Origin: a virus
Virus record (IMG/VR): IMGVR_UViG_3300025769_000223
Location: 1-45,219 of that record
Direction: 5' to 3' (one strand)
DNA length: 45,219 nucleotides
The translations under genes and the position numbers were made by a program. The notes beneath the pieces are model-generated. The model searched no databases, was not told the DNA's origin, and was given only the letters and a program-made list of their open reading frames with translations. Positions 4,343-41,146 of this stretch are shown in pieces (position 1 is the stretch's first letter; each line of letters begins with the position of its first letter).

Positions 4343-5770
4343 ATGACGGCAATAGTAACATCTAAATTCAGAACGTTGAACGCAGAAAACTTTAAAGCAG
4401 ATATTGCTGATGCTGGTACTAGTGTATATGTTGGTATTGGTAAATCAGATGTCTGGTCTTTAACAACTTCTGATACAACAGACACAACACCTTTTACACC
4501 AGCAGATACATTAGATCAATTAGGAGAAGCACATCAAAACGTATTTGCTTATAAACTACTTGGCGCTAATGATGTATCACATGTAGTTCCAAGACATACA
4601 TGGCAATCAGGTGGACAATATTACGAATGGGATTCTAATGATCCAGATATTTTCGATAAAGCGTTTTATATTATTACTTCAGAGTTTAAAGTTTATAAGT
4701 GTATTAAACAAGGAAGCGGTAATTCAACACAAGAACCTGTACAAACATTAACAGTACCAACAGCAGAATCAGATGGTTACACTTGGAAATACATGTATAC
4801 AGTTTCCGTTGCTGATGCAGAAAAATTCTTGACAACTTCATATATGCCCGTTAAAACAGTTGATCCAAGAGCAGGAGGTCAAGCATCAGATTATAACAAT
4901 GATACAACCGCAGAGAATGCTTTATCAGAAGCAGACTATGCACAATACCTAAATCAAAAAGCTTCAGCTCAACACGCTAATGCTGGAGGTATTGAAAGAA
5001 TCGAACTAGCTACTACATCAGGAAGTGGAGGAACAGGATATACTTCTGCTCCTACAGTGTATATAACAGGTGATGGATCTGGCGCTCAAGCGACAGCTAC
5101 TGTTTCAGGTGGTGCTGTTACTGGATTTACTATTACAAATAAAGGAACTGGTTATACAATTGCTGATGTAAGAATTTCTGGTGGAGGTGGTAGTGATGCA
5201 TCTGCGAGAGCAGTTATTTCTCCAGCTGGTGGTCATGGAACTGATCCAATAAAAGAACTAGGTGGATTCTTTGTAGCAGTTAATACTTTACTAGAAGGTA
5301 CAGGCGGTGGAGATCTTACTGTTGGAAATGATTTCAGACAAGTAACACTTGTTAAAAATCCAACTAATTACGGGTTAACAACTATCGCTACAGCTACAAC
5401 ATTAAATGCAACAGGCGCTTTAGATTTTGCTTCTAAAACTGGAACATTCCAAGTTGATGAATTAATTACTCAAGGTTCTGGAGCATCATTAGTACAAGCA
5501 TACGTAGTATCAATTGATTCAGGAACTGGAGAAATTTATTATAATCAAAATAGTAAAACTGGTTATGGAACATTTGCGCATGGTTCAGGTAACACAGTAA
5601 CAGGACAAACTTCTGGTGCTACTGGTGTACCTAAAACTACGGCTAATGATTTCTTAACAAATCCTGAAGTTAATAAAGAAAGTGGTCAAATCATTTTTAT
5701 GGAAAACAGAAATCCAATTAATAGAACAGCTACACAGATTGAAGATATTAAAGTTATTATTGAATTCTAA
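4343..5770 (+). CDS. 8: Baseplate wedge subunit gp8
   Basis: Wedge protein that binds gp10/gp7/gp6 in T4. Both ends match T4 gp8: the N-terminus has AIVTSKFRT, and the C-terminus has [20 protein letters not shown], equivalent to T4 EMIYMENRPP...TEEINI. The conserved VVPRHTW and [10 protein letters not shown] segments lie between. At 475 aa it is about 140 residues longer than T4 gp8 (334); the extra length is largely a Gly/Ser-rich insert around residues 225-310 with [15 protein letters not shown] and [13 protein letters not shown] repeats, the same type as in gp7. ATG at 4343 is preceded by GGGAAATAAAAA. A late promoter and a small hairpin lie just upstream inside gp7, so gp8 may be transcribed separately as well as by read-through. 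Confidence 0.93.
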
Positions 5771-21101: not shown

Positions 21102-21109
21102 TATAAATA
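21102..21109 (+). promoter_or_regulatory. T4-type late promoter (TATAAATAG)
   Basis: Exact TATAAATA followed by GAATA, in the gap between the 524-aa and 2111-aa fibre genes. Predicted transcription start is around 21115-21117, giving a leader of about 63 bases. Confidence 0.75.
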
Positions 21110-24100: not shown

Positions 24101-27100
24101 ATCTTCACTTATTCAAAAAATGGGTAAAGTTACAAGAGTCGATGCAAGTGCTGGTTCAATAAAAGTTATGGGTGCTGGTAGAACGAATGCTACTCCTAAC
24201 CTTGATGAAGGTAGATTATTTGTAGGTAATTCTTCTAACCAATCAGTACAAGGTGATGATACACTTTATGTTGATATGGCAAATAGCCGTGTTGGAATTA
24301 ATACAACTTCACCTCTTTATGCATTACAAACTGTTGGATCAATATATGCTAATGCGGGTTCGTTATTTCTTGATTCAGGTCAAAGATTAAAATGGGGTAA
24401 CTCACAACAGTTTATAGAAGCTACAAATAGTGGCCCAATGGAATTTGGCACAGGTAATGCTATAAGAATGACAATAGATTCATCTGGTAATGTTTCCATG
24501 AGTCAAAATTTAACTGTTACAGGTAATTTAATAGTTAATGGAACAGCTACTACAATTAATACAGCAACACTTGATGTTGAAGATAAAAATATTACACTTA
24601 ACTATTCTTCGGGTGATAGTTCTGGAAGTGCAGATGGTGCAGGTATTACTATTCAAGATGCAGTCGATGCTTCTACTGATGCAACATTTAATTGGAATGC
24701 GACCAATGATAGATGGGAACTTTCTCATAGTTTAAATTTCCAAGACGGTGATCCTATTCTTTGGGGTGGAAATTCAATAGTTCAACATACTGGAACATAC
24801 ACATATATTGGTGATAACGCAGCTAGTAATTCACTAAGACTTACAGGCGGTAACTTAGGTATTGGTAAAAATCCATCTTATAAGTTAGATGTTTCAGGTT
24901 CTATTAATGCTGCATATAGTGCTACAAATGCAAATATTATTGGAATGCATAATGGAGCTTCTGGAGAAGGTTGGATTAGGCCATTTTCAAATGGTGGAGA
25001 TTTTGAATTTAATGTAAAATATCCTGGTGGTGATTCGGATTATATTTTCTATGTAAATGATTCTACAGAATTACTGCGTATTAAAGAAAGCGGTAATGTT
25101 GGTATTGGTACTAACGATCCTCAAAGAAAACTTGAAGTAGTTGATAACATACTTATTGATGGTTCATCAGGCGCAAATTTATATTTTAGACCAAATACAT
25201 CTTATAGTACGGCAGGTAATTTTGGTATATTTACTACAGGCTTATCATCAGGTACATACGAATCTACTATGACTATTAAGGGTTATGGTAGTGGTGTAAA
25301 TGATGTGATGACTATTAAAGGTCTTGGCAATGTTGGTATAGGAGATACGTCGCCGTCATATAAGTTAGATGTAAATGGTACTGGTAGATTTACTGGTGCT
25401 GTAACAATGGATTCAACATTAACATTTAGTAATAATACTGCCACTAATATGCTTAATATGGGTAATAATAATATTATTGGTGTTAATGCGATTCAAATGG
25501 CAGATCCTGGTCCAAATGAAGGAATTAGTTTTTCAAACATTAAGATTTATGAATCTCCCGATGATTTAACAACAAACTCTGCTGGTAATTTCCAAGTTGT
25601 TTATGGTAGTACAAGAAGATTAACTGTTAATAATACTGGTATTGATGTAAATGGTACAATCACTGGTGCCACAAATATTTCAAAACTAGCTGCATCAACT
25701 GCAACTGGTAATATTAATACTGAAGATGGTGCAAATACATGGGCTAAATTAGCTACATATTCTAGAAGTGGTAATTATAACGATGGCTCATTTGTTTATG
25801 CTGTTGTTACAGAAGAACAAACAACTAATAACTCTGGTCTTATTTCAGTAAAAGTTAGATGGCACGATGCTACAGGTTCTAGTTCTCCTACTATAGATGT
25901 TCAATGGATTAGTCTACAATCAGACGGTGTAAGTAATGGTATTGTTAGAACTGATTCGTTTAAACTAATTGGTGATAGCGTAGGCGGAGATATAGAATTA
26001 TGGGTACAAAAGAAAACTAATTATGGTCATGTAGAACTATGGGAATTAGCATATAATAAAGAAACTAGTAACGCAGTAACTGTATCATACGAAACAAATT
26101 CTGCATGGCAATCATCAACTCCAACAGGAACATTAGTTAATAAAACATCTAGTACACTTAAGTTTGATGGTCGACCAGTTATAATTGGTGATAATTTTGC
26201 AAATGATACTGATGTAAAAATAGCAGGTGATCTTTTATTAGAAGTTGCAGCATCACCATCACTCACACTTAAAGATACAACAAATAATGTTACATTTAAA
26301 TCTTATGCACAAGATTCAAATGCATTTACAGGTACAACATCTTCACATAATTTATTAATTGGTACTAATAATACAGAAGCAATTAGAATTAATAATTCAC
26401 AACAAGTTGGTATTAATCAAGGTTCTCCTACAAAAAGACTTCATGTTAAAAATTCTTCTAATGATGATAATAATATTTTATTAGTAGAAGCATCAGGAGC
26501 AACTACTTATGGTGTTTATATAAAATCAGCATACTCTGGTCAGATGGGTAGAGTTGGAGCTTTATCTCAATCAGATGGAGATTTAGACGGAGCAAGTATT
26601 GCCTTTGAAGATTTTGGTAGAGATATAGCTTTCCGTACAAATGAAGGTTCGAATAATAGTGAAAAGGCTAGAATTTTAGCTAATGGCAATGTAGGTATTG
26701 GAGATTCATCACCATCTGCTAAATTGCATGTAGTAGGCTCAGTATTAAATAACAGTATTCAAGATTATGGTATTGCCGCATTTGAAAATTCTAATTTAGA
26801 AGGATTAAGTATAGGTTATGATGCTGATGGTGGATATACTTATCTATATAGTAGAGAAGTTGGAGTTTCAAGTAGAGGACTTCATTTAAATGGTTCTATA
26901 TATGTAAATAATTATGGCGGTAATGTTGGTATTGGAACCACTTCTCCAGATACTAAGTTAGATATTACAACTACTGGTGTTGAAGGTTTAATAATAAACC
27001 AAGATACATCAAGTGCTAGTGTTTCTAGTAGATTATTCTTCAAAGATTCTACAAGAACAAACTTAATAATGAATGTAAGTGGTAGACTAGAATTTAGAAC

Positions 27101-27515
27101 TGATGGTATAATAGGTTCTACATCAGGCACGTATAGAGTTGGTGTAACACCTACATTATTTGATGTTACAACTCCAATTAAAATTGAAGAATATCAAATT
27201 GATACAACAGAAACTTCTACAACTGCAACAACTCAAGTTGCTATTCATACATTTGCAGGTGCTACCTTTAGAAGTGCAAGATATACTGTACAGGTAACTA
27301 ATTCAACTGATTCAGCTTATCATACAACTGAACTATTATTAGTACATGACGGAACAACAGCAAATATAACAGAGTTTGGTACTATCTTTACAGGTACTGC
27401 AGCAGAAGCTACATTCGATGCAGATATTAATTCAGGCAATGTAAGATTACTTGCAACTCCTGCTTCCACAGATAGTATGGAATTTAAAGTTATTGCCCAT
27501 TCAGTTACAGTTTAA
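21180..27515 (+). CDS. Giant tail fibre protein with VGIGTTSP repeats, TTG start
   Basis: A 2111-aa fibre protein. The start is TTG at 21180: AGGAG lies nine bases upstream, the encoded ARKTDIRLRRSNVANAIPGA and DGELAMNTMDGALYF form a typical fibre N-terminus, and the first in-frame ATG would remove part of it. About 14 repeats of the GNVGIGTTSPxxKLxVxG type run from residue 64 to about 1930, a beta repeat common in marine phage fibres. Residues about 870-1010 form a domain with LTKGNVVYISGISGNTVIV. A shared module with LDVEDKNITLNYSSG and NDRWELSHSLNF lies near 1110-1190. The end (about 2010-2111) is a compact beta domain with no S74 motif. It follows its own late promoter and a leader with two hairpins. 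Confidence 0.85.
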   Translation: MARKTDIRLRRSNVANAIPGAANLSDGELAMNTMDGALYFKKSDGTIITAHDNTIMHIDSANDRVGINTTNPTYKLHVGGSGASYLAGGIQLNSTDKITIGNPNQFITAVNDTSLTLATDGSASLTILDNGNVGIGTTSPATALEVAGDITLPSNGQLKFKGTNHYPRIYAASNDLLINLDNGSGSNYTALKIDNVTGNVGIGAATPDKKLTVDGDVKIGNGDAFMSANVAGSTRSLISLGTDNILRIKGNDAEGSSNVISMIAGGNVGIGTTAPEEDLHVVGDVKLTGTLFNGTRDEYTNSNLIRLNQRYTGGAVSGTSYFEQNEYQKVVTITPNGSSENYQVSGTYYVQSAGSIQEVHFVAGLRSGVLPDLTWSIYYDQSNNGTAYIEPFLWTKETTTAGFILGFKVLTGSIFGSVTADIDIIPRNADDKDNVSINTTVQSEQTTIDTGFTNQSFTLRKSVINANTGLGANPGSYRLDVAGNSRISGSVSLVGTLQSYSGAFNIKNIAQDQNLNLQVNDGGTNTTALTVQGTTANVGIGTTSPSDKLHLNGAANAATGVIIGNNNSTRLRLYHDDNAGASLLSTDAVGTEQQLRIRSGSFLALDTGGTSERVRITADGDVGIGTTSPSSVLNVHSSTDPKITISNGGGTSPSPELLFFRQNGVSAKINYNVANKNLILQNDYATADTSGNMYFNTRGANTRMTITGDGNVGIGDTNPSFPLDVNNTSTRVRFKATTGHSNLELSSIAGRDYLLQSLSNGEFTIHDEDSNANRLNISTAGAITFNNAFTFPTSIGNSGQILKVPSTGTTLVWADDAGGGSATVLTDTDGDTKIQVEESADEDVIRFDVAGSEIATMTDDGVILNDGYNFEGGVLGAIKFKAQAGEALTKGNVVYISGISGNTVIVSKADANDSAKMPAFGLAGSTVSLNGAVEIVTFGTLLGVDTSTPSFALGEQLYVSTTAGELTNSVPTGSSSLIQKMGKVTRVDASAGSIKVMGAGRTNATPNLDEGRLFVGNSSNQSVQGDDTLYVDMANSRVGINTTSPLYALQTVGSIYANAGSLFLDSGQRLKWGNSQQFIEATNSGPMEFGTGNAIRMTIDSSGNVSMSQNLTVTGNLIVNGTATTINTATLDVEDKNITLNYSSGDSSGSADGAGITIQDAVDASTDATFNWNATNDRWELSHSLNFQDGDPILWGGNSIVQHTGTYTYIGDNAASNSLRLTGGNLGIGKNPSYKLDVSGSINAAYSATNANIIGMHNGASGEGWIRPFSNGGDFEFNVKYPGGDSDYIFYVNDSTELLRIKESGNVGIGTNDPQRKLEVVDNILIDGSSGANLYFRPNTSYSTAGNFGIFTTGLSSGTYESTMTIKGYGSGVNDVMTIKGLGNVGIGDTSPSYKLDVNGTGRFTGAVTMDSTLTFSNNTATNMLNMGNNNIIGVNAIQMADPGPNEGISFSNIKIYESPDDLTTNSAGNFQVVYGSTRRLTVNNTGIDVNGTITGATNISKLAASTATGNINTEDGANTWAKLATYSRSGNYNDGSFVYAVVTEEQTTNNSGLISVKVRWHDATGSSSPTIDVQWISLQSDGVSNGIVRTDSFKLIGDSVGGDIELWVQKKTNYGHVELWELAYNKETSNAVTVSYETNSAWQSSTPTGTLVNKTSSTLKFDGRPVIIGDNFANDTDVKIAGDLLLEVAASPSLTLKDTTNNVTFKSYAQDSNAFTGTTSSHNLLIGTNNTEAIRINNSQQVGINQGSPTKRLHVKNSSNDDNNILLVEASGATTYGVYIKSAYSGQMGRVGALSQSDGDLDGASIAFEDFGRDIAFRTNEGSNNSEKARILANGNVGIGDSSPSAKLHVVGSVLNNSIQDYGIAAFENSNLEGLSIGYDADGGYTYLYSREVGVSSRGLHLNGSIYVNNYGGNVGIGTTSPDTKLDITTTGVEGLIINQDTSSASVSSRLFFKDSTRTNLIMNVSGRLEFRTDGIIGSTSGTYRVGVTPTLFDVTTPIKIEEYQIDTTETSTTATTQVAIHTFAGATFRSARYTVQVTNSTDSAYHTTELLLVHDGTTANITEFGTIFTGTAAEATFDADINSGNVRLLATPASTDSMEFKVIAHSVTV
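21370..26960 (+). repeat. Dispersed VGIGTTSP coding repeats
   Basis: The 2111-aa fibre has 14 units that fit G-N-V-G-I-G-T-T-S-P-x-x-K-L-x-V, for example SPATALEV, SPSDKLHL, DTSPSYKLDV, SPDTKLDI, with spacing from tens to over a hundred residues and unrelated inserts between. Three weaker copies occur in the next fibre gene (near 28870, 29170 and 29445). Confidence 0.8.
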
Positions 27516-27527
27516 AGAATTCTATTG

Positions 27528-27535
27528 TATAAATA
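27528..27535 (+). promoter_or_regulatory. T4-type late promoter (TATAAATAG)
   Basis: Exact TATAAATA followed by GTATTATAA, 36 bases before the ATG of the 1352-aa fibre gene, in a 56-base gap. Confidence 0.72.
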
Positions 27536-27571: not shown

Positions 27572-30500
27572 ATGGCAACAGATCACAATTTTAAAGTCAA
27601 AAATGGCCTCAACGTAGAAGGTGCAGGTCTCACTATTGTAGGGGATGGATCCGAATCTAGGGTTACATCAGGTGGCGAAATCAGATTTAGGCCTGAAGGC
27701 TCATCATCAAATAAAGTCAGAATAACACTAAATACACTTCAAGTTCAAGGTAATGTTAATACAACTACTGGATATCAGGTAAATGGTTCAAATGTTATTG
27801 ACGGGTCTGGAAATTGGGCTGGTGGTTCATTAACTAGTACATCACTAGATATTAATGGTAATGCAACAGTATCAGGATATCTAAACTTTGATGGTGGTGA
27901 CCAAAACGGACTTTTACGAATAGGTGGATTAAATGTAATTGGTAAATCTAATAACTTTTTATATATTGATCCTAGTAACTCTTTTAGTTCAGGAATTTAT
28001 ATTAATAACCAACTAAAAGTTAATGGTGGTTTAATTAGTTCTTATGATGAAGATTTACAATTAAGAGCAGCTGGTACTACTGTACTTACATTATCAAATA
28101 CTGATTCAAGCGCGTCATTTGTAGGTGATGTAGATGTTGCTGGAGATTTAGATGTAACTGGTGATTTAAATATTACTGGCGATATTAATTCGGTATCAGT
28201 AACAGATTTAGATGTTGTCGATAAAACAATCACCCTGGGAGTTGGACAATCTGCTGCTAACTCTACTGGTTCAGGTATAGTTATTTCAGGTGCTAATGCT
28301 AATATTTTATGGCATAACACAAATGATCGTTGGGAATTTAATAAAGACATTCATACATCTGGTAATATTGATCTAGGTAATGCTAGAATATACGCAAGTG
28401 GTGATAGTAATTCTATTCACATACATGCACCTACAGCGATTATAGGACCATCAACTACTACAGCAAGTAACCCATCATTAGGATTATCAACTTATAGATG
28501 GAATGGTTTATTTAGTAGTACAGGTAGTTTCTCAGGCACATTAGCTGTCGCAGGACAATCAACATTAGCACGACCAGTATTGGTAAATGGTGCTCACGAT
28601 AATAGCGGTAAAGCAGATTTTGCCGTAGATGGTGGAGAACAGATATCACTTTATGATGGCCAAGTTCAAATGGGTGGCACTGATATGAACTGGTCTGCAA
28701 GATTTTTCTATAATAGTAGTGGTGGTCATGTTGCAGTTTGGGATAATAATTTAGAATTCTTTACACAAGGTAGTAATACTGGATCTGCTACTGCAAGAGA
28801 TATAATTTTCTCTCCACAAATAAGTGGTACTGCTGTTCCAACAGAAAGAATGAGAATCAAAGGCAGCGGTAATGTTGGTATAGGAACGAATGCTCCAGCA
28901 GCTTTATTACACGTTTCATCAGGCACAAGTGGAGATGCCACTGTCATCATAGAATCTGATACAGATAATAATGACGAAAACGATAATCCACAACTACAGT
29001 TTAAACAAGATGGTGGTATTACGATTGCAAAAGCAGGACTTACAGGAGATGCTGGTCAAATATTTGGCAATTCATTAGGTAATGCTGCTTATTTTGGTAA
29101 TGATGAAGCGGCGGCTGTGCAATTTTATACAAATGCAACAGCTAGACTAACTATTGATAGCTCAGGTAACGTTGGTATTGGAACCACTTCCCTCACAAAT
29201 AAATTCCATGTAAGTGGTAATGCTAGAATTGAAGGCAACCTTATGGTTGGTGGTGCAGCTGCAAATAATGTTCCTGTTAGACCAATTCACATTAAATCTG
29301 CAGGTGATGCAGCAGCAATTCGTATTGAAGATACAACAAATTCTAATCAAGTATTTGATATAAGAAGTACACACGGTACAGGTTTATTATTCATCGATGA
29401 TACAGCCGGTGCCACTCGAATGACTATAGACAGTGCAGGAAGAGTTGGTATTGGTACTGCTCCATCATCTGCAACAAACTTGCACGTACAAGGTAATAAT
29501 TCTGCTGTTTTCAGAGTAGATGCACAAGATGGTGGTTCAGCACCTGCTATGACTGCAAGAATACAGATTCATGGTTATGAAGGCAGAGGTGCAGGAATAA
29601 AAATAAAAGATTCTGTTAATAGTGCTAGTGGTGCAAGTGATAGAGAATGGTTTATTGGAAGTGGTTATAACCAAAGTGGATTTAATATTGGATATGCCGC
29701 TAATGGATCTCAATCATCATATGCCGCACAAAATAAATTTGCATTAGATACTTCTGGTAATGCTACATTTTATGGTGAAATATACGCTAAAGATAGTAAT
29801 TCATCTACTGATCCTACTATAACATTTACTGGTCATACAAATACTGGATTAGCAGTAACTCAACCAGGTGGGTTTGATCATTTATGGTTAGTCACAGATG
29901 GCACTGCTAGAGCATATGCAAATAATTCAGGGTTCTTTTCGGAAGGAAATTTATACTCAGGAAATAGTGCTGATTTTAGAAACTTTGGCGGTGAATGGCA
30001 TGCAACAACTGGAACTACAGGTAATGGATTTAGATTTACAAACACTGCTGATAGTGTAGATGCATTAGTGCTCACGGCGGCAGGTAATGCAACCTTTGCA
30101 GGAACTATTAATAGTGGTGCAATAACTTCTACAGGAAGTATTAGTGGTACTCAAATTGGTGTAACAAATATTGTTACAAATAAAGTTGTTAAGTTTAACG
30201 GATCTATTTTAGATGATTCAAATATTACAGATTCTGGTACATTAATTACTTTAGGTACTTCTTCAGAAGTTACAGGAACATTAACAGTAGATTCTGGCAC
30301 AGCAATGGGCCTTAGAATTGAACACGACACCTTTGGTAATTGTTTAGAACTACATAGAGAAGATGCCACTAATGCAGCTTCAATTACGTTTTCAAATAAT
30401 TCTGGAACTTCTGGAATTCTATTTGCAATACATTCAGAAACAGATTTATATTGGAGAAAAGGAACAGGCACAACAAACTATAGAATATGGACAGAAGAAA

Positions 30501-31630
30501 ATGATGGTGCTTCTTCGGGTTTAAATGCGGATTTACTTGACGATCAACATGGTTCATACTATACAAATGCAAGTAATCTATCAAGTGGAACAATACCATC
30601 TGCTAGATTCCCAGATAATATCTTTGACTCATATCGAAGAGATACAATTGATTCATCTTCTGAAGACTTTAATAACTATTTAACAACTGGCACATATGCA
30701 GTAAATAACTGGTCAGAAAGTGGAGATACAGTAGCAAACGGGCCAACAAACACTACTGCAGGTGGTGCTTATCCTTGGGGAATATTAAGAGTTACAAACT
30801 GGCAAGCTGCATCAGGTTCAAGTTCTGGTACAGGAACTTATGTCTTACAAGAATATTGGCCACATCAAACCGATGTTGTATATTCTCGTATTATGTGGAA
30901 TGGAACATTTACTGGTTGGAGAGCAGCATGGGGTAATGAAAACGATGGATCAGGCTCTGGTCTTGATGCAGATAAACTAGACGGTGTAGAAGGTGCTTCA
31001 TTCCTAAGAAGCGATGCCACAGATACTGCAAGTGGTGTTATAACATTTAGTGATAGAATTAATTTACATGAAATTAGAAGTAATACGAGCCAAGAAGTTA
31101 TTATTAATGCAGGTGAATCTTCATCTTATGCTGCTTCACAAACTGATGAGTATTTATATGTAAATGCTGATACTGGTTTCCAAGTAAATGTAAGTCCAGA
31201 TAACTGGTCAAGTGCTTGGGCAGGTAGAAAAACTTTAACATACGATGGCACAAATGGTCTTGTTACTTCTGGTGGATTTAGCGTTGATACTGGTGGTAAT
31301 TTAAGTGCAACAACAAAATCATTTGATATCGAGCACCCTACAAAAGAGGGAATGAGATTAAGATATGGAGTTTTAGAGGGCCCAGAAAATGGTGTATATG
31401 TACGAGGTAGAACAAAGGGCTCTGTAATTCAGTTGCCCGATCATTGGACTGGATTGGTACATGAAGATACTATTACAGTACAACTAACTCCGATTGGAAA
31501 ATCGTCAGAGTTATATGTAAAAGACATTGCTGATAATAAAGTATTGGTGTCAAATGATACAGAATATTTCTATTATATTATGGCAGAAAGAAAAGACGTT
31601 GAGAGATTTGAGGTAGAATATGAGAGCTAA
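27572..31630 (+). CDS. Tail fibre protein with pyocin-knob-like and 'LEGPE' C-terminal domains
   Basis: A 1352-aa fibre. It starts MATDHNFKVKNGLNVEG, a recurrent fibre N-terminus. Residues about 190-265 hold the shared module with DLDVVDKTITLGVGQ and NDRWEFNKDI. Three VGIG units follow. Around 1025-1105 a segment (NNYLTTGTYAVNNW, YPWGILRVTNW, VLQEYWPH, GTFTGWRAAW) has the layout of pyocin-knob receptor-binding domains. The C-terminus (about 1249-1352) has SFDIEHPTKEGMRLRYGVLE, GPENGVYVRG and LPDHWTGLV, a conserved end domain known from marine phage fibres, different from S74. ATG at 27572 follows a late promoter. The 3' end overlaps the next small gene by 11 bases. Likely a receptor-binding fibre; the receptor is not known. 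Confidence 0.85.
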   Translation: MATDHNFKVKNGLNVEGAGLTIVGDGSESRVTSGGEIRFRPEGSSSNKVRITLNTLQVQGNVNTTTGYQVNGSNVIDGSGNWAGGSLTSTSLDINGNATVSGYLNFDGGDQNGLLRIGGLNVIGKSNNFLYIDPSNSFSSGIYINNQLKVNGGLISSYDEDLQLRAAGTTVLTLSNTDSSASFVGDVDVAGDLDVTGDLNITGDINSVSVTDLDVVDKTITLGVGQSAANSTGSGIVISGANANILWHNTNDRWEFNKDIHTSGNIDLGNARIYASGDSNSIHIHAPTAIIGPSTTTASNPSLGLSTYRWNGLFSSTGSFSGTLAVAGQSTLARPVLVNGAHDNSGKADFAVDGGEQISLYDGQVQMGGTDMNWSARFFYNSSGGHVAVWDNNLEFFTQGSNTGSATARDIIFSPQISGTAVPTERMRIKGSGNVGIGTNAPAALLHVSSGTSGDATVIIESDTDNNDENDNPQLQFKQDGGITIAKAGLTGDAGQIFGNSLGNAAYFGNDEAAAVQFYTNATARLTIDSSGNVGIGTTSLTNKFHVSGNARIEGNLMVGGAAANNVPVRPIHIKSAGDAAAIRIEDTTNSNQVFDIRSTHGTGLLFIDDTAGATRMTIDSAGRVGIGTAPSSATNLHVQGNNSAVFRVDAQDGGSAPAMTARIQIHGYEGRGAGIKIKDSVNSASGASDREWFIGSGYNQSGFNIGYAANGSQSSYAAQNKFALDTSGNATFYGEIYAKDSNSSTDPTITFTGHTNTGLAVTQPGGFDHLWLVTDGTARAYANNSGFFSEGNLYSGNSADFRNFGGEWHATTGTTGNGFRFTNTADSVDALVLTAAGNATFAGTINSGAITSTGSISGTQIGVTNIVTNKVVKFNGSILDDSNITDSGTLITLGTSSEVTGTLTVDSGTAMGLRIEHDTFGNCLELHREDATNAASITFSNNSGTSGILFAIHSETDLYWRKGTGTTNYRIWTEENDGASSGLNADLLDDQHGSYYTNASNLSSGTIPSARFPDNIFDSYRRDTIDSSSEDFNNYLTTGTYAVNNWSESGDTVANGPTNTTAGGAYPWGILRVTNWQAASGSSSGTGTYVLQEYWPHQTDVVYSRIMWNGTFTGWRAAWGNENDGSGSGLDADKLDGVEGASFLRSDATDTASGVITFSDRINLHEIRSNTSQEVIINAGESSSYAASQTDEYLYVNADTGFQVNVSPDNWSSAWAGRKTLTYDGTNGLVTSGGFSVDTGGNLSATTKSFDIEHPTKEGMRLRYGVLEGPENGVYVRGRTKGSVIQLPDHWTGLVHEDTITVQLTPIGKSSELYVKDIADNKVLVSNDTEYFYYIMAERKDVERFEVEYES

Positions 31631-31811
31631 ATTAGTTTATAATAAAACAGATGGTACAGTAACTCTGGATTCTTTAGATGGAAATCCTGTTTCACTTTGG
31701 AATGAAGTTGTATCTGATACTTCTTCACAAGTAATTATTAACCTTGAAATCGAAGGTGATGATTCAGAAGACCATGAAAATATGGAAATGGGAGAAGTAG
31801 ATGGCGACTAG
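31620..31811 (+). CDS. Small acidic protein, unknown function
   Basis: A 63-aa protein, MRAKLVYNKTDGTVTLDSLD at the start and an acidic end (EGDDSEDHENMEMGEVDGD). It overlaps the 1352-aa fibre by 11 bases and the next gene by 11 bases, a pattern of translational coupling. GAGG (31609-31612) stands in front of the ATG as ribosome site. No domain recognised. As the only small gene between two adhesins, it may be a fibre accessory or assembly factor, but the sequence alone does not show this; there is some chance that it is not expressed. Confidence 0.6.
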   Translation: MRAKLVYNKTDGTVTLDSLDGNPVSLWNEVVSDTSSQVIINLEIEGDDSEDHENMEMGEVDGD

Positions 31812-34305
31812 AACATCATCACAGTCAGGTAATTTTAATTCAACTTCAACTTGGGGTGGTAGTGCTGTTCCTGTTGATGGTGATGCTTTTGTAGTATCTG
31901 CTGGTCATATAGTTACAGTCAATGATGATAGAAGAACTACAAATGGCTATGATAATTCTACAATAAATGGTAAATTACATATTACTGGTTCAGGTTTAAT
32001 TAGAATGAATGGTCAGTTAGATGTTACATCAACTGGAACATCTGATTACTTTACTGAAAATGATTCAAGTACAGGTGCTTATTTTAGAATGGACAATGGA
32101 GCCATTTTAGAAATAAAAGGAGATAATTCAGCAAATCATTCACTAAGAGTTAATAATCAAAAATATAATTGGGTAGAAATTGAAGGAACAAACCCAAATA
32201 CTACTACCACTACTTCAGCAAATGTAACTATTGGTTCATCATCGTTCACAGTAACTTCAGCAACTGGACTTGCTGTTGGTGATTGGATTAATGTTTTTAG
32301 ACCACTTGAAGATGTTGATGATTGGGAATATGATAGGTACCAAGATGAAGGTATGATTATTCATGATATATCTGGATCAACGATTTATCCCAGATGGTTT
32401 GTAAGTCCTACTGCAACTATTTCTAGAGTTGCAGGAACAAAACTTTTTGTTGATGATGCAGTTGTATTTAGAAAAGGGCAACAAATTATTTTTGGAACGG
32501 GATCAAATAGAAATGTTAGAACAATTTCAGAAATAAAAAGAAATTCAAATACTCTTGTGTTAAATAGTGCACCAACTGGAACAGTTACTGGTGAAAAAAT
32601 ATATAGATGTGGCACAGAAAAATATCATGTATCTGGTCATACTGTACAAAAAATTGCAACTCCTTTAACTGCAGATTCAAATTCAGGTACAAATACAATT
32701 ACAGTTGCTTCAACTGCAGGAATGTCCGTAGGAGATAGAATTCTTATTGAAGCAAATAACAATTCAGATACAAACTGGGATTATGAAATGCGATATGAAA
32801 TTTCTGCAATCTCAGGAAATACAATTACACTTACATCAAATTTAGGTAATAATAGATACACTGGTGGCTGGGTAACTATATTTGATAGAGATACACAGAT
32901 TAGAGCTGCTACTATTGAAGCAGACGGAGAAGCTTCTACTTCAGAAGATAGACCTTATATTTACTTTTTAAGATGGACATCGGGCGATGCATATTATAGA
33001 AGATATCGTATTAGAAACTGTTTATTTGAAGGTATAGGTTCTAACACAGTAAATACTACTTGGTATAGAGGCCTTGGTTGGAATGGATATTGTAGCTTCG
33101 AAAATACATCTTATGGTCAATATGCTTCAGGCTATGAAGGCAATGTTTGGGTACCTAATAATAGTGGTAATAATGCATGTATGTATACAAGAGAATGCCA
33201 TCAATGTACAGTAAGAAATAATATTTTTTATAATGGAGGTTTAAATTTATGGAGATATTCAAGTGGCAATAATTATGCAATAAACAATAATATTTCTTGG
33301 AGAAGTCATTACACAACATTTTTACAAGATGGTGCATATGAACCAAGAATGACGGTTGATTATAATCACTTTTCAAGATCTGATGACCATGGATCATTAT
33401 GGTACCATCATAGACAATCTGCTGGACAAGTAAGACATAATTATTTTACACATCACGAACAAAGACCATTATATGTGTTTTATCATTCACATAATATTAT
33501 TTGGGAAAATAACTATTTTAATTGGTATAGATCATGGCCATATATTGGAGCAGGAGGAGATATTATACACTTAAATAGTTATTTCGGTAATGATTGGGAT
33601 GCTACTACAGGTAATACATCTCCAGTTAATGGTGTACAGATTCAACAATTAGGTGATTTAAGAGCTGATAGACAACTCGCAGGTCAATCTATGTATTCAG
33701 TAAATCACAATTGGAGAGATGGAGATACTGTGGAGTGGGGCTCATATATTTGGAGAGAATGGGATTTTGATGAAAATGCCTGGAAAGTCTTTAGAGATAC
33801 TGCAACAGATGGACCTGCAGGTATGACAGAATCAATTTATGTTCCTGCAGGAGCTACTTGTTATCTTGCGGCAGAAATTAAATTAAGTGATGGATTTAGT
33901 GGTACATATCCTTATATTTTGTGTAGACAAGCAAATAGTTATCACGATGGAAGACATTATGATAATAGTACAACAAGCACTCAGGCAGCTGAAACTGCAA
34001 ATAGTTATTACTATGGGTTTAGAGAATCAGCTCAGTTTACTTCTGCTGCAATAGGTGCATATGAAAGAAAAACAGTTACGGTAAATCCAGTCGATTACGA
34101 TTATTACTTAACCGTAACACTTTATACAAGTAGTGTTAATGCAGGAGATGGATTAGAACATTGGCATCAAAAACCAATTGAAATATACTTAGATGGTGGA
34201 ACAAGATTAAAAGAAAAGAAATTCATAGTTCGTCATCAAAGCAAAAGAGGATTTAATAATTCTACAACGCGAAGAAAGAAAAGATTAGGTGGAAGATTAG
34301 TATAA
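31801..34305 (+). CDS. Predicted right-handed beta-helix spike with G8-like N-terminus
   Basis: An 834-aa protein unlike the repeat-rich fibres around it. The N-terminus (SGNFNSTSTWGGSAVPVDGD, then AFVVSAGHIVTVNDD) matches the start of G8-type domains ('W..G..VP..GD.V.I..G..V'). Residues about 400-600 hold successive PbH1-like coils: YRIRNCLFEG, CTVRNNIFYNG, NYAINNNISWRSHY, MTVDYNHFSRS, GQVRHNYFTHHE, NIIWENNYFNWYRSW, the pattern of pectate-lyase-like beta-helices. The segment is rich in Tyr, Trp and His, as in glycan-binding grooves, and has Cys at 407, 431, 460, 466 and 469. A beta C-terminal domain ends in a basic tail (TRRKKRLGGRLV). It may be a tailspike that binds or cleaves a polysaccharide; catalytic residues cannot be assigned. 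GGGAGAAG precedes the ATG. Confidence 0.75.
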   Translation: MATRTSSQSGNFNSTSTWGGSAVPVDGDAFVVSAGHIVTVNDDRRTTNGYDNSTINGKLHITGSGLIRMNGQLDVTSTGTSDYFTENDSSTGAYFRMDNGAILEIKGDNSANHSLRVNNQKYNWVEIEGTNPNTTTTTSANVTIGSSSFTVTSATGLAVGDWINVFRPLEDVDDWEYDRYQDEGMIIHDISGSTIYPRWFVSPTATISRVAGTKLFVDDAVVFRKGQQIIFGTGSNRNVRTISEIKRNSNTLVLNSAPTGTVTGEKIYRCGTEKYHVSGHTVQKIATPLTADSNSGTNTITVASTAGMSVGDRILIEANNNSDTNWDYEMRYEISAISGNTITLTSNLGNNRYTGGWVTIFDRDTQIRAATIEADGEASTSEDRPYIYFLRWTSGDAYYRRYRIRNCLFEGIGSNTVNTTWYRGLGWNGYCSFENTSYGQYASGYEGNVWVPNNSGNNACMYTRECHQCTVRNNIFYNGGLNLWRYSSGNNYAINNNISWRSHYTTFLQDGAYEPRMTVDYNHFSRSDDHGSLWYHHRQSAGQVRHNYFTHHEQRPLYVFYHSHNIIWENNYFNWYRSWPYIGAGGDIIHLNSYFGNDWDATTGNTSPVNGVQIQQLGDLRADRQLAGQSMYSVNHNWRDGDTVEWGSYIWREWDFDENAWKVFRDTATDGPAGMTESIYVPAGATCYLAAEIKLSDGFSGTYPYILCRQANSYHDGRHYDNSTTSTQAAETANSYYYGFRESAQFTSAAIGAYERKTVTVNPVDYDYYLTVTLYTSSVNAGDGLEHWHQKPIEIYLDGGTRLKEKKFIVRHQSKRGFNNSTTRRKKRLGGRLV

Positions 34306-34339: not shown

Positions 34340-37300
34340 ATGTCAGATGATTTACTGATTACCCCCGGCTCCAGGAAACTGGAGATAAAAGATACATCGG
34401 GGAATGTCGATGCAAAAATAGAAACTGATGCGAGTGGTAATTTACTTATCACAAACGCAGGTGGTGATATATCTATTGGTGATACTTCATCAGATGTATT
34501 TATTGGAGACGGAACAAATAGTGTAGATATCGTCTTTGAACAAGATGGAGAAATTCGTGGTACATCGGGCGTTACATTAACCTTAGGTGCTTCAGGCAGT
34601 AGTGTTGCTATGGCAAGTGATTTATCACTTGGTGGTAATGATTTAACCAATGTCGGCAATTTAACTGTTACAGGTAATTTAACAATTACTGGAGATATTA
34701 ATTCTTATAACGTAACAGATTTAGATGTAAGTGATAAAACGATTACATTAGGTGTCGGACAAACAGAAGCAAACTCTGGTAACTCGGGTATTATTATTGA
34801 TGGGTCAAGTGCTTCTATACTTTGGGACGAAACTAATGATAGATGGAGCTTTAATAAAGGAATATCAACATCAGGGCCAATTAGTTCAAGTGCAACTTCT
34901 GGTAGTTCATTTTATGCGGCAAGTTTTACAAGAAGTAGTAGTACATTAACAACTCCTGATATTTGGGGTAGCAGTAGTACACTTGTATTTGGAACATCAT
35001 CATCTGATGAAAGACTTGCATTAAGCACAGACGGTGCATTAATATATGGTAGAGCATTAGTAAGAAATGCTTCATCAGATCAAAATACTAGCCAAGATTC
35101 TGCATCAATTCCAGATACTACTGGCCCAGAAATAATGCGATTCGAAGGTAGTTATACTAATGGAACATACACAACAGAATTTGCAAAAGTAGATAGAAGT
35201 GGAAACTTACCACTTTATGTAAGACAATCAAAAGGTACTGCAAACTCATTTAGTAATATCGCAAGATTTGGAGATCATGGTCAAACAAATGGTACTGATG
35301 TATTTGCTGTATTTGGTGGTGCACGAGTTGGTGGTAGAGTTACTGCTGATAATTTAACTCTTAATAGTATTTCAACTCAGAGTTCAGAAGCAACAGTATT
35401 AACAATTAATGGAAGTAATGTTATTGGTAAGAGAGAACTTGGTTCAAATGCATTTAATTCTACAGCTTTCCTTACATCTAGTTCTTCACTTAATGCAAGT
35501 AATATTTCAAGTGGAACATTAGCAAGTGCAAGATTACCTGATTTAACAGTTTCAGATTTTGCAGGGTCTGCTATACAAACTGGGTCAGAATCTTTTGCGG
35601 ATTCAGATACAGCATTAATGACTGCTGCTGCAGTACAAGATAAAATTTTAAGTTATGGTTACACAACAAATGTTGGAGATGTAACTTCAGTAAGTGCAAG
35701 TAGCCCACTTAGTGTAGGAGGTGGTGGTGGTCCATCTCCCAGTATTAGTTTTGTAAGTGCTGCAATTAATACTTCGACAAGTGATGCCGATGGTGACTTT
35801 TTCTTAGTTCACAGCGGTACTACTAGTAGTGGAGGTTTATTTAAACTTACAAAGGCGAATATTAATTTATCTGGATTTAATAATGATTCTGGATTCTTAA
35901 CTAATATAACCACTCAAACAGATCCTAAGTATTTAAGAAGTGATACTTCCGATACATTTAGTGGTGGAACAATAACATTCGAAGCACCAACAGATGGCAC
36001 TGCAGTCTTTATGACAAAGGCAACGGATTCTCCTGATGAACCTGCAATACTTGTTCTTGCAGGAGATGCAGACTCTGAAGACGATCTAGCTTTTGAAATC
36101 AGAGGAAATACAACAGGAAGTTCTGTAGACTTAAGTACTACTATGAGTTCTGCAGATACAAAGTTTGCAATTTTTCAAAGTGGTCACACAACAATTGGTT
36201 ATAATAGTTTAGGCACAGGATATACTCCAGTAAATGCTTACGGATTAAATGTAAATGGAACAATCTCAGCTGTAAATGGATATTATGCTGGTTCAACTCA
36301 AGTTATTAATTCAAGTGGTAACTGGGTAGGTGGCGGAAACATTTCCGAATTTACAAACAATAGTGGGTATCTAACAAGCTCATCTGGACTAAATGCAAGT
36401 AATTTAACAAGTGGAACTGTACCAGATGCACGAATTGCAGCAAGTAGTATTACACAACATACAGATTCAAAATATCTCAGAAGCGATGTTTCCGATGTTT
36501 ATGCTGGAAGAACATTATCTTTTGGAATCGTAGGAAATGGTACAAATACTAATGGATCATTCTTTAGTATTGAAGGGAACACCGATAGCAGTGGAGAGGG
36601 TTCAGGCAGAATATTCTTTAGAGAACATAATAGCTCAACAGCAGCAGAGGATAATTTTGGAATGTCTCTCGGCTATCGTGGTGGAGCTACAACTATTACA
36701 ACTGCTGGAGGCAACAGTAATACTACGGCAGCATTAGTAAGTAATGGTCAATGGTTTATGGTTGGTCATGATGCGAACAACCAAGGAGCTCTTATCATGT
36801 ATGGTGATAGAGCTGCTACATTTGTAGACTTTTCAAGTAATAATGTTAGAGGAATTGGTACACTTACCGCTGCAAGTGCAACTATAACAGGCTTATCAAC
36901 TCAGAGTTCAGAAGCAACAGTATTAACAATTAATGGAAGTAATGTTGTTGGTAAGAGAGACCTGGGCTCAAATGCATTTAATTCCACTACAATTCCAACA
37001 AACAATAATCAGTTAACAAATGGAGCTGGTTATATTACTGCATCAAATAGTGCCATTACTAACAAACTACCTTTAGCTGGTGGAACATTAACTGGTAAGC
37101 TTACCATGGATGAAAATGGATTTTCAGTTTCAGATGCTTATCATTCATGGAAAAGAAACTATGTTGTAAGTTCATCTTCACCTCAAGAAATATTATACCA
37201 CGACGGAACTTCTTTAGATAATGGAGGAGTTTATAGATTTACGGCTCATATATCAGGAACTGGAACTGATCAAAATGCTACTGCAGTTTTTTGGAATCAG

Positions 37301-40300
37301 AATGGAACCTGGAAAGTTAATGTAACAGGACAAAGTGGAACAAGTAGTAATCACCCAGAATTTATAATTAGTTCTTCAACAAATAAACCGACAATTCACA
37401 TTGATCATGCTAGTGCTTATACTATTATTATATATCACGAATGGTTACAATTAAATGAGGAATTAACAGGTACAGACAATGCTGGATATGCATTTGGAAC
37501 CGATGCATTTTTAGGAAGTGTTGGAGATAAATTATACTTTAATCCTGGTGGAACAGCTGCTACAGGGGCCAATCCTTATGATGATGGTGATGAAGTATAT
37601 CACGAAGGTCACAAGCCAACATATTCCGAACTTGGAACAATGGCATATTCCAATCTTACTGGTACACCAACAATTCCATCACTATCAGGATATGCAACAG
37701 AATCATATGTAGGAACACAGATTAGCAATTTAGTTGATTCTGCTCCAAGTACTTTAGATACACTGAATGAATTAGCTGCTGCACTTGGTGATGATGCAAA
37801 CTTTAGTACAACCGTTACAAATAGTATTGCTACTAAACTACCACTAGCTGGTGGAACCTTAACTGGTACTCTGGACTTAAATGCTGCAGATTCTCTTTCT
37901 TTCGAATCAGGAAAACATTGGATTACATGGAATGATGGAGAAGGAAACTTTAATATTAGAGTTGGACATAAATCAGATTCATCTACGAATGAAGTATCTA
38001 CTGAAACTGGATATGTATTCCACGATGAGTGGTCACAGAGTTCTGGTTGGAGAGAGTTCAATATTTCAGCGAGCAGTATAACCGCTGGGGCTGATGTAGG
38101 CACTTGGCGAAAACAGATGTACTATGACACTAACTCCGTATATATTGCATATCAAGGAAGTACTAAATTTAATACTACATCTGCAGGGGTATCGATTGCT
38201 GGAAACATAGCAGTATCAGGAACAGTCGATGGAGTAGATATTGCCGCAAGAGACGCAGTCTTAACAAGTACAACTACAACTGCTAATGCCGCATTACCAA
38301 AAGCAGGTGGAACAATGACTGGAGACCTTCAGGCTCCTGGTTTATATGTCGGTTCTACAAACACTAGTTACGATTTTTATAATAATGGAACAACTTATTT
38401 AAATGGTAATGTAAGAGTAAATGCTACTTTAACTGTAGATGCAGGTAATATTGAAATTGCTAAAGATAATCCTGTTCTAATACTTAATGAAACGACTTCT
38501 TCATCTAATGCTAACCAAGTGGCTTATATTAGTTTCCAAGATAATGGCACAGAAGAAGCATGGATAGGCTGGGGAAGTAGTGGTAATACAGATTTCACTA
38601 TTACTAATAATATAGGTTCTGTTGTTTTAAATGGAAATGGAACAACACAAATAAATGACAACTTAGATCTTAACGGAAATGCTGATATATCAGGAAATAT
38701 AACAGTTACAGGAGAAGCTGCTTTTAATGGTACAAAACTAGAAGGTGATAGTAAAGAGATGCTTCGATTCTCTGACACATGGTTAAGAATAAATCCTGAT
38801 AATGACTTTACCAGCGGTATTTATTGTGGAACTGGATTATTAAGAACAGATGGAACTTTTCAAGTTGGTGCTAGTGGTACTAAATTTGCAGTAAATGGAG
38901 CAAATGGTAATGTTACTCTTGCAGGAACAGTCGATGGTCGTGATGTTGCTACTGACGGAACAAAACTCGATACAATAGCTACAAATGCTGACGTAACTCC
39001 TTCATGGGTGCCATCAAGCAATCCAAACTATTTAACAAGTTCATCTGGACTAAATGCAAGTAATTTAACAAGTGGAACTGTACCAGATGCAAGAATTGCT
39101 GCAAGTAGTATTACACAACATACAGATTCAAAATATTTAAGAAGTAATGCTAATGATACTCTATCTTCTACTTTAAAAGTAACTGGAAGTATTATTCACG
39201 AATTCAATACTGCAGGTGGTTATATAGCAAGACCGAAGGGCGCGCAATATGTAACAAGTACAAATGCCCATACAGGTGCAATTAAGATTAAACTACCGAC
39301 TCATGGTACAGATGATATGATGTCCTTCTGGGTAGATATTTATGACTATAGTACTGGAGAGTCAGTAACTTTATGGATTGGCGGTTATCTTTACCAAACA
39401 ACAGGAAACAATGAGTGGGTAAATACAACTGCTTTAATTTTTACAGAACAAACAGGTAAAGCTCCCGAAAATGTTAGATTTGGAGCAGACGGAAGTAATA
39501 ACTGTGTATGGATTGGTGAAACTACAGACACCTGGAGTTACCCTCAGATTATAGTAAGAGATTTTCAATGCGGATATAGTGCAGATATAGATGCATACGA
39601 TGATAACTGGTCAATAACTTTTGTTACATCATTTGATACTGTTGATGAAACTCATGTAGCAAAAGGCCCCGTAACAGAATGGGATAGAGTTGAAGGCAAA
39701 CCAACAATACCAACAAACAATAACCAGTTAACAAATGGTGCTGGTTATATCACTGATGGTAATACAAACTGGAACAATACTTATGGATTTATAACTTCTA
39801 CAGACTCAAGTATCACTAATAAAATGCCACTTGCTGGTGGAACATTTACAGGTGCTGTAACAATAGAACAATCAGGAACCCCAACACTTAGTTTAAGCGA
39901 TAGTGGAAATGCTGGAGGCGGAGGAGCTTCTGGTAAAATACTTTTCTCAAATACTGGCGGTAATGCTATGGGTATTGGGTATACTGGAGATAGTACAGCT
40001 GACTCAGACTTTATTATATCATCTAATGCAGGTGGAACTTATGGTGGTTATCTTGGATTAGATGCTGGTGCTATTACAGATGCTCAATCAGATATTATAT
40101 TAGAACCAAAAACAAATGTCAGAATTGCTACAGGTTCTATTGAAATGGGTAGTACAGTATTTATTGACCAAAGTAGAAACATGACAGTCGGAACTATCTC
40201 TAGTGGTCAAATAACAGCAACAAAAATTCATGCTGGTGGTGATAGTACTTCCTTTACTGATGGAACTGATCCTGATATTTCTACTGATAATATTTATGCA

Positions 40301-41146
40301 ACAGAAAAAGTTGTTTCACCAAAAATCGTTTGGTTAAATGATGCTAGTGGAGATGATAACTATGTAACTTGTGATGATAATAATAGCGCATATACTGTTA
40401 AAGGTCAATCAGCTGGTGCATGGTGGCAATGGTATGGTGATAAAACATTAGGTTATGCAGGTCATAAATTTGATTATTGGAAAGGTAATGGTGCAGAATT
40501 AACTGGATTTATTCAATTTACTGGGACAGGAACAGATACTAATACTGGAGGATATATCTATTTTGGTAATGCAACCACATATAAAATAAATCCTAATCAG
40601 CAATCTGTATTTGCTCCAGGCTCTACAACAAGTAGTACTACAAGAAAGGGAATTAAATTTTATCATGGCCAGGGCCCTGAGCCAGTGATATGGTATCATG
40701 CAACTGGTACAGGCACTGGAATGTTAAAAATATATTCAAATAATGTTGGTGTTGGTGATATGTTTGCATTAGATGCAACTAATGGTGATGGTCACTTTAA
40801 AGGAGATGTTACTGCTTATTCAACTACTACTACTTCTGATATTAAATTAAAAGAAAATGTAAGAGATTTAGAAGGTGCATTAGATACAACACTTAAATTA
40901 AGAGGTGTTAAGTTTGATTGGAAAGATGAAAATAAAGATAATGATCAATTAGGATTTATTGCACAAGAAGTAGAAGAAGTATTACCAGAAATTGTAAAAG
41001 AAGTAACAAGTTTAAGTGATGATAATACTGAAACACATAAATCAGTTAATTATAGTGCAGTAGTTCCTGTATTGGTAGAAGCAATAAAGGAATTGAAACA
41101 AGAGATTGATGATCTTAAAGAACAACTAAAGAATAAAGAGTTATAA
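34340..41146 (+). CDS. Giant mosaic tail fibre with C-terminal S74 chaperone domain
   Basis: A 2268-aa fibre. N-terminus MSDDLLITPGSRKLEIKDTS; shared module with DLDVSDKTITLGVGQ and NDRWSFNKGI (about 105-180). Later parts alternate linkers and beta domains: SEATVLTINGSNV units, LNASNLTSGTVPDARIAASS units, four (L/M)PxAGGTxTG units, a jelly-roll-like domain at about 923-1090 (YRFTAHISGTGTD, SNHPEFI), TLDTLNELAAALGDD, and another at about 1613-1775 (IKIKLPTHGTDDMMSFW, VRFGADGSNN, VWIGETTDTWSYPQIIV). The end is an S74 chaperone with SDIKLKENV; S2166 and K2171 form the predicted Ser-Lys dyad, and self-cleavage should free about 103 aa ending in a coiled coil. It has its own late promoter. Long repeated DNA inside suggests modular growth. 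Confidence 0.88.
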   Translation: MSDDLLITPGSRKLEIKDTSGNVDAKIETDASGNLLITNAGGDISIGDTSSDVFIGDGTNSVDIVFEQDGEIRGTSGVTLTLGASGSSVAMASDLSLGGNDLTNVGNLTVTGNLTITGDINSYNVTDLDVSDKTITLGVGQTEANSGNSGIIIDGSSASILWDETNDRWSFNKGISTSGPISSSATSGSSFYAASFTRSSSTLTTPDIWGSSSTLVFGTSSSDERLALSTDGALIYGRALVRNASSDQNTSQDSASIPDTTGPEIMRFEGSYTNGTYTTEFAKVDRSGNLPLYVRQSKGTANSFSNIARFGDHGQTNGTDVFAVFGGARVGGRVTADNLTLNSISTQSSEATVLTINGSNVIGKRELGSNAFNSTAFLTSSSSLNASNISSGTLASARLPDLTVSDFAGSAIQTGSESFADSDTALMTAAAVQDKILSYGYTTNVGDVTSVSASSPLSVGGGGGPSPSISFVSAAINTSTSDADGDFFLVHSGTTSSGGLFKLTKANINLSGFNNDSGFLTNITTQTDPKYLRSDTSDTFSGGTITFEAPTDGTAVFMTKATDSPDEPAILVLAGDADSEDDLAFEIRGNTTGSSVDLSTTMSSADTKFAIFQSGHTTIGYNSLGTGYTPVNAYGLNVNGTISAVNGYYAGSTQVINSSGNWVGGGNISEFTNNSGYLTSSSGLNASNLTSGTVPDARIAASSITQHTDSKYLRSDVSDVYAGRTLSFGIVGNGTNTNGSFFSIEGNTDSSGEGSGRIFFREHNSSTAAEDNFGMSLGYRGGATTITTAGGNSNTTAALVSNGQWFMVGHDANNQGALIMYGDRAATFVDFSSNNVRGIGTLTAASATITGLSTQSSEATVLTINGSNVVGKRDLGSNAFNSTTIPTNNNQLTNGAGYITASNSAITNKLPLAGGTLTGKLTMDENGFSVSDAYHSWKRNYVVSSSSPQEILYHDGTSLDNGGVYRFTAHISGTGTDQNATAVFWNQNGTWKVNVTGQSGTSSNHPEFIISSSTNKPTIHIDHASAYTIIIYHEWLQLNEELTGTDNAGYAFGTDAFLGSVGDKLYFNPGGTAATGANPYDDGDEVYHEGHKPTYSELGTMAYSNLTGTPTIPSLSGYATESYVGTQISNLVDSAPSTLDTLNELAAALGDDANFSTTVTNSIATKLPLAGGTLTGTLDLNAADSLSFESGKHWITWNDGEGNFNIRVGHKSDSSTNEVSTETGYVFHDEWSQSSGWREFNISASSITAGADVGTWRKQMYYDTNSVYIAYQGSTKFNTTSAGVSIAGNIAVSGTVDGVDIAARDAVLTSTTTTANAALPKAGGTMTGDLQAPGLYVGSTNTSYDFYNNGTTYLNGNVRVNATLTVDAGNIEIAKDNPVLILNETTSSSNANQVAYISFQDNGTEEAWIGWGSSGNTDFTITNNIGSVVLNGNGTTQINDNLDLNGNADISGNITVTGEAAFNGTKLEGDSKEMLRFSDTWLRINPDNDFTSGIYCGTGLLRTDGTFQVGASGTKFAVNGANGNVTLAGTVDGRDVATDGTKLDTIATNADVTPSWVPSSNPNYLTSSSGLNASNLTSGTVPDARIAASSITQHTDSKYLRSNANDTLSSTLKVTGSIIHEFNTAGGYIARPKGAQYVTSTNAHTGAIKIKLPTHGTDDMMSFWVDIYDYSTGESVTLWIGGYLYQTTGNNEWVNTTALIFTEQTGKAPENVRFGADGSNNCVWIGETTDTWSYPQIIVRDFQCGYSADIDAYDDNWSITFVTSFDTVDETHVAKGPVTEWDRVEGKPTIPTNNNQLTNGAGYITDGNTNWNNTYGFITSTDSSITNKMPLAGGTFTGAVTIEQSGTPTLSLSDSGNAGGGGASGKILFSNTGGNAMGIGYTGDSTADSDFIISSNAGGTYGGYLGLDAGAITDAQSDIILEPKTNVRIATGSIEMGSTVFIDQSRNMTVGTISSGQITATKIHAGGDSTSFTDGTDPDISTDNIYATEKVVSPKIVWLNDASGDDNYVTCDDNNSAYTVKGQSAGAWWQWYGDKTLGYAGHKFDYWKGNGAELTGFIQFTGTGTDTNTGGYIYFGNATTYKINPNQQSVFAPGSTTSSTTRKGIKFYHGQGPEPVIWYHATGTGTGMLKIYSNNVGVGDMFALDATNGDGHFKGDVTAYSTTTTSDIKLKENVRDLEGALDTTLKLRGVKFDWKDENKDNDQLGFIAQEVEEVLPEIVKEVTSLSDDNTETHKSVNYSAVVPVLVEAIKELKQEIDDLKEQLKNKEL
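35372..35460 (+). repeat. Direct repeat A, copy 1 (89 bp)
   Basis: Nearly identical to 36896-36984: I count four differing bases in 89. Encodes STQSSEATVLTINGSNVIGK followed by RELGSNAFN. The copies are 1524 bases apart within one fibre gene. Confidence 0.85.
36371..36483 (+). repeat. Direct repeat B, copy 1 (113 bp)
   Basis: Matches 39032-39144 with six differing bases in 113, all synonymous. Encodes LTSSSGLNASNLTSGTVPDA followed by RIAASSITQHTDSKYLR. Confidence 0.85.
36896..36984 (+). repeat. Direct repeat A, copy 2 (89 bp)
   Basis: Second copy of the 89-bp repeat; protein differs from copy 1 by I to V and E to D only. Confidence 0.85.
39032..39144 (+). repeat. Direct repeat B, copy 2 (113 bp)
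   Basis: Second copy of the 113-bp repeat, 2661 bases downstream in the same gene and frame. Confidence 0.85.

Follow-up and report, generated by a model that had tools for sequence, protein, structure and literature searches.

The open reading frame at positions 31801-34305 on the plus strand of a 45,219-nucleotide viral stretch (IMG/VR record IMGVR_UViG_3300025769_000223, covering positions 1 to 45,219 of that record and hereafter termed the window) probably encodes a virion spike, or receptor-binding protein, of a T4-like phage, in which a beta-helix is led by a G8 domain, carries Rider barrels and finishes in a carbohydrate-module-like end, and which would be expected to trimerise and to bind polysaccharide. 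The frame is genuine, opens with ATG and specifies 834 amino acids. T4-like phages abound in marine and lake waters, and the host-recognising part of the virion is unknown for most of them. The spike family described here recurs across a broad array of uncultured aquatic T4-like viruses, occupies a fixed gene slot, lies outside the PHROGs (a search with the spike protein gave no match) and was not seen at full length by tblastn in GenBank phages. Points new to this analysis are the arrangement of three barrels in tandem, a connection with G8/CEMIP proteins, the breadth of the environmental family in its fixed slot, and a small probable partner gene. The features concerned were as follows:

27528-27535, plus strand: exact match to the T4-type late promoter TATAAATA, which would serve the fibre, the small gene and the spike
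27572-31630, plus strand: upstream tail fibre ending RKDVERFEVEYES, with PHROG tail fibre matches
31620-31811, plus strand: small acidic reading frame of 63 amino acids, which overlaps both the end of the fibre gene and the beginning of the spike gene, with counterparts in related loci
31801-34305, plus strand: G8 beta-helix spike gene, 834 amino acids (AlphaFold2 model with pLDDT 85.6 and pTM 0.87)
31801-32196, plus strand: G8 domain, residues 1-132, forming the first beta-helix rungs (Pfam G8 below cut-off; model strands)
32197-32418, plus strand: Rider-like beta-barrel 1, residues 133-206, bearing the invariant family signature DEG..(I/V)HDI.GN.IY.R (hhalign to barrel 3)
32419-32643, plus strand: Rider-like beta-barrel 2, residues 207-281 (hhalign to barrel 3)
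32644-32880, plus strand: Rider-like beta-barrel 3, residues 282-360 (alignment with the LKA1 gp49 insertion domain; Pfam K1-lyase_Rider below cut-off)
32881-33675, plus strand: right-handed beta-helix with PbH1-type rungs, residues 361-625 (DSSP of the model, rung test, ladder counts)
33676-34200, plus strand: CBM16-like C-terminal beta-sandwich, residues 626-800 (Foldseek 2zez; CBM_4_9 in one relative)
34201-34302, plus strand: basic flexible tail with the conserved end K-x-R-(L/I)-(G/S)-G (identity of the last eight residues against the preceding tail)
34340-41146, plus strand: downstream fibre starting MSDDLLITPGSRK, with a Peptidase_S74 C-terminus (Pfam S74, E 4.3e-16)

The AlphaFold2 model of the monomer was calculated from an alignment of 53 family members, ranging from 23 to 74% identity to the window protein, and superseded a model based on only five close relatives that was unusable (pLDDT 43). 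According to this model the spike is a right-handed beta-helix protein, with strands of the G8 rungs beginning at residue 29, barrels at residues 135-360, helix rungs continuing to about residue 591 and a beta-sandwich at residues 643-797; the tail is modelled with low confidence. The G8-like N-terminus and PbH1-like coils proposed by the initial annotation were borne out, in that Pfam G8 was matched at residues 17-67 (E 0.022) and, at E<=0.01, in 15 of the 53 relatives, whilst the model contains five regular three-strand rungs (residues 444-591), irregular ones before these and about three in the G8 part. The regular rungs are spaced by 23-26 residues in the DSSP assignment of the model, and their in-register similarity was equalled by three of 5000 shuffles. 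A ladder at residues 474, 497, 522, 547 and 571 is composed entirely of Asn in the window protein and is mostly Asn or Cys in other members of the family; the spike accordingly shows both the three-strand rungs of about 22-26 residues and the two-residue Asn-ladder turn of PbH1 helices.

The compositional remarks of the same annotation also held for the most part. Residues 390-625 comprise 9.7% Tyr, 4.7% Trp, 5.1% His and 12.3% Asn, Arg and Lys together account for 38% of residues 801-834, a tail that terminates in RLGGR, and the protein stands apart as Tyr/Trp/His- and Cys-rich relative to the other long adhesin frames of the window. The five cysteines that had been listed (407, 431, 460, 466 and 469) are present, but the protein contains eight in total (270, 687 and 708 in addition) and none is conserved in the relatives, by which a disulphide role was ruled out.

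Foldseek searches of the PDB with the monomer model placed phage depolymerases and tailspikes, including 7vul, 4y9v, 4ru4 and 7w1c, among the top matches by E-value. Since the TM-scores to single PDB entries were low (0.1-0.2 on the query for the enzymes), these matches are generic to beta-helices and denote a beta-helix spike rather than any particular enzyme. The 50 PDB fold matches listed did not include TMEM2 (8C6I). One full-length match stood out in a viral structure library, namely A0A516M121, with TM-scores of 0.77/0.72 and 22% identity. The C-terminal sandwich was matched to the CBM16 structure 2zez (TMt 0.57 over 140 columns, probability 1.0), and a CBM_4_9 match was obtained in one relative (E 0.021).

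Comparison of the family segments with hhalign related barrel 1 to barrel 3 (probability 95.7, E 3.9e-9) and barrel 2 to barrel 3 (probability 80.7, E 1.5e-6), with no direct match between barrels 1 and 2; the control pairs, G8 against barrel 3 and barrel 1 against the helix, gave E-values of 0.07 and 0.96, respectively. The Pfam family K1-lyase_Rider (PF24149) scored 17.5 bits in the spike, below the curated cut-off of 27, and was found in 13 of the 53 relatives at E<=0.01. By sequence, and by way of the barrel, the 53-member profile retrieved 7vul (E 1.1e-5, from stretches that are each weak when taken singly) and 4ru4 (E 0.0014). In LKA1 gp49, the insertion domain deepens the groove and contributes Arg329 to the active site (PMC5701251), whilst the Rider domain of the K1 lyase stabilises the trimer and participates in a second sugar site (PMC8822698).

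The G8 assignment likewise draws on the family, as Pfam G8 (PF10162) scored 15.1 bits in the window protein, below the curated cut-off of 22.9, and the best of the 53 reached an E-value of 9.1e-6; CEMIP_beta-hel (PF24606) was matched by no member at E<=0.01. When 150 genomes of one bacterial family were searched with the family profile, large cellular proteins were matched in two places, the G8 part and barrel 3 with the first rungs. In two of these proteins G8 and CEMIP_beta-hel score far above the cut-off, and in a third G8 also exceeds it; hhalign to bacterial G8/CEMIP members gave E-values of 5e-6 and 1e-6 across the motif GNTITL...RN/RD. Two proteins with G8 above the cut-off, at loci L095 and L099, align with barrel 3 and the first rungs of the spike, a region outside their G8 domain. 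At about positions 1500-1840 of L095, the bacterial G8/PA14 gene is split over two frames, reflecting a frameshift or an assembly error. In the human protein TMEM2, the nearest architecture among eukaryotes, G8 forms part of a single continuous beta-helix that takes up inserted beta domains after three turns; assays of TMEM2 showed no hyaluronidase activity (PMC10206443).

Two close relatives of the spike were retrieved from IMG/VR and two more from a binned genome. Searches with pieces of the alignment extended this to five loci with the helix, 11 with the N-terminus and 68 with residues 180-275, the last from a single profile scan of IMG/VR in which nearly all loci took up one and the same slot, with a tail-fibre gene on either side. 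In nearly all members the protein opens with M-x-x-x-(T/S)-S-x-(Q)-(S)-G and closes with K/x-R-(L/I)-(G/S)-G. A spike of this kind had been called unexpected among T4-like fibres, a view that does not stand, as the same gene slot is filled in dozens of related contigs. Among 50,697 GenBank phage records, tblastn with the window protein returned no match at 1e-5, and whole-protein tblastn with other family members gave nothing significant; at a loose limit, one N-terminal match appeared, in Curvibacter phage PCA1, the sole GenBank relative noticed. The search of the single bacterial family yielded only partial G8/barrel matches, apart from two stray contigs. A Rhodobacteraceae host, considered from the bin that holds L004 and L005, was ruled out by the very different coverages of the contigs (5.7 and 40.6), and these two are probably stray phage contigs in the bin, not prophages.

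The spike lies among virion tail genes, as is characteristic of tailspikes. Upstream, a fibre with an RKD(V/I)-type end was found in 47 of 66 loci and a lectin-like LamG gene in eight, and downstream a fibre with an ITP start was counted, by reading the gene lists, in 51 of 62. Two or three lectin-like Laminin_G_3 genes lie between fibre and spike in L005 (1054-4801), L013 (2057-5801) and L014 (3997-5786), and none does so in the window. The upstream fibre of phage P560 (QOV05501) gave no match. About 48 of 66 loci have similar small acidic reading frames directly ahead of the spike, and many of these frames begin in a YNK-x-TGE-like manner; the 63-residue frame of the window, for which no confident family match was found, is a probable partner gene of the spike.

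Exact copies of TATAAATA occur on the plus strand at 4287, 11101, 18897, 21102, 27528, 34310 and 41142, shortly before the structural genes at 4343, 11263, 18921, 21180, 27572, 34340 and 41169, and one further copy lies on the minus strand at 31151. The fibre frame at 21180-27515 (2111 amino acids) is listed with a TTG start and follows the exact promoter at 21102, hence its true start is uncertain. No exact late promoter directly precedes 31620 or 31801; without one of its own, the spike is probably transcribed together with the fibre at 27572-31630.

Within the family, pairwise identity averages 42% for G8, 37-44% for the barrels, 25% for the helix and 27% for the sandwich, and the last eight residues reach 59% against 17.5% in the preceding tail. 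Several polar residues of barrel 1 are invariant or nearly so (E183 in 53/53; D182, H188, Y196 and R198 in 52/53 each), as are R363 and R472 (52/53), Y521 (49/53), H276 and D189 (48/53) and R526 (47/53). Conservation is strongest in barrel 1 and next to a turn that in known spikes is directed towards the trimer axis. Within the helix, E446, R472, N496, Y521 and H546 occupy or adjoin the two-residue turn; in the K1 lyase the sheets flanking this turn pack at the trimer centre (PMC8822698), and this set may be structural. No invariant acidic/His cluster was found in the family alignment on the presumed groove side of the helix, where D528, D529, H552 and E553 are retained at about 56% helix identity and above and lost in the 46% identical L010. 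This pattern fits a conserved assembly and docking half joined to a variable host-facing half. A depolymerase would fit it as well, given that the catalytic set varies from one such enzyme to another.

Taken as a virion spike, the protein has a body that is, in the confident model, a continuous right-handed beta-helix running from G8 at residue 1, widened by three Rider-type barrels and ending in the beta-sandwich. It would form a trimer, held together by the conserved G8/barrel half, which would also dock to the baseplate or to a neighbouring fibre, whilst the variable helix face and the sandwich would bind the host surface polysaccharide, so setting specificity. The initial annotation had proposed a beta-helix spike as a candidate glycan-degrading enzyme. 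The observation was sound and the reading is partly supported: the beta-helix spike is upheld by the confident model and the G8/CEMIP profile matches, whereas enzyme activity is putative, no PL or GH family having been matched by the spike or its 53 relatives in curated profile libraries.

By analogy with Rider-bearing tailspike lyases the spike might additionally cleave host polysaccharide, to which we assign somewhat less than an even chance, and a polysaccharide depolymerase proper, a beta-helix lyase or hydrolase acting on the host's surface glycan through a groove that the barrels would deepen in the manner of LKA1 gp49 and the K1 lyase, is credible to a similar, tentative degree. Those Rider-bearing phage spikes whose activity is known are lyases, namely the K1 lyase (Tyr311/His373/Arg397), P560dep and LKA1 gp49 (PMC11652154, PMC5701251, PMC8822698), the P560 and LKA1 proteins were picked by both sequence and fold searches, and the helix retains conserved polar residues (E446, R472, Y521, R526 and H546) together with an acidic column at 510. 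Against catalysis count the missing PL/GH match, the loss of D528/D529/H552/E553 in L010, the apparent location of the most conserved helix residues next to the two-residue turn that, in the K1 lyase, points to the trimer axis, and the LKA1 residue Arg329, which falls opposite T324/N325 in the alignment and is not kept. A non-enzymatic adhesin or structural spike, whose beta-helix is only a stiff and variable binding surface, has about an even chance of being correct; many of the phage beta-helix spikes among the fold matches are enzymes, yet TMEM2, built on the same plan of G8, inserted domain and beta-helix, showed no detectable hyaluronidase activity (PMC10206443), lectin-like LamG genes adjoin the spike in several phages, and the helix face is variable against a conserved N-terminal half.

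Placement outside the virion, as a cell-secreted or moron-type G8 protein, is very improbable: bacterial genomes do encode G8/CEMIP beta-helix proteins, but the gene keeps its place among late tail-fibre genes, on the same strand, in dozens of contigs, has no promoter of its own and has no cargo genes nearby. A bolder version of the virion spike, which we consider unlikely, is a dedicated two-gene receptor module carried by a wide lineage of uncultured aquatic T4-like phages, consisting of the acidic partner and the G8 three-barrel spike, in which D182-E183/H188-D189/Y196/R198 of barrel 1, and not the helix, would serve as the functional site, whether catalytic or metal-binding, and RLGGR as a docking tether. 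RLGGR as a pure protein tether is weakened because the GGN-GGN-AGR codons occupy the Shine-Dalgarno place of the next gene in many relatives, where the conserved C-terminal GGR codons (34266-34302 in the window) form a Shine-Dalgarno-like stretch, so that selection on the peptide and on the ribosome site coincides there. A ribosome-site role does not fully explain GGR either, since synonymous codons vary and non-Shine-Dalgarno forms retain the glycine, and since GGR is kept in the clade of the window although the next gene starts 37 nucleotides downstream with its own upstream signal. For the virion spike as a whole, the model suffices for the choice of constructs, making host recognition and possible polysaccharide cleavage directly testable.

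Several known systems resemble the spike in part. LKA1 gp49, the O-antigen lyase of Pseudomonas phage LKA1 (4RU4), likewise has a beta-helix interrupted by a barrel insertion and followed by a C-terminal beta-sandwich, and its insertion domain is 33% identical to barrel 3 over 73 columns; it differs in having one barrel against three, in its active-site Arg329 and in being a lyase by experiment. The K47 depolymerase of Klebsiella phage P560 (7VUL) ranks first among PDB matches in both fold E-value and profile search and contains two stretches resembling the barrel, but has no alignable helix or G8 and a TM-score of only 0.17 on the query. The Klebsiella K1 capsule lyase (7W1C, source of the Pfam Rider family) shares the beta-helix, Rider barrel and C-terminal beta-sandwich (fold E 7.9e-6), although direct profile comparison was not significant and the Rider match lies under the curated cut-off. 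Curvibacter phage PCA1 UZZ64504.1 matches the N-terminal G8 and first barrel region (probability 96.8, E 2.1e-10) and its gene also directly follows a tail fibre gene; this protein has 981 amino acids, of which the remainder does not align, and belongs to an isolate with a known host. The G8/CEMIP proteins (bacterial PF10162 with PF24606; human TMEM2 and CEMIP) have in common with the spike the G8 start, an inserted beta domain and the GNTITL...RN/RD entry to the helix, whereas the bacterial examples are longer with G8 placed elsewhere and TMEM2 carries a lectin-like insert. Hyaluronan cleavage claimed for that group is disputed, and it is to this G8/CEMIP/TMEM2 beta-helix architecture that the spike ties the phage spikes.
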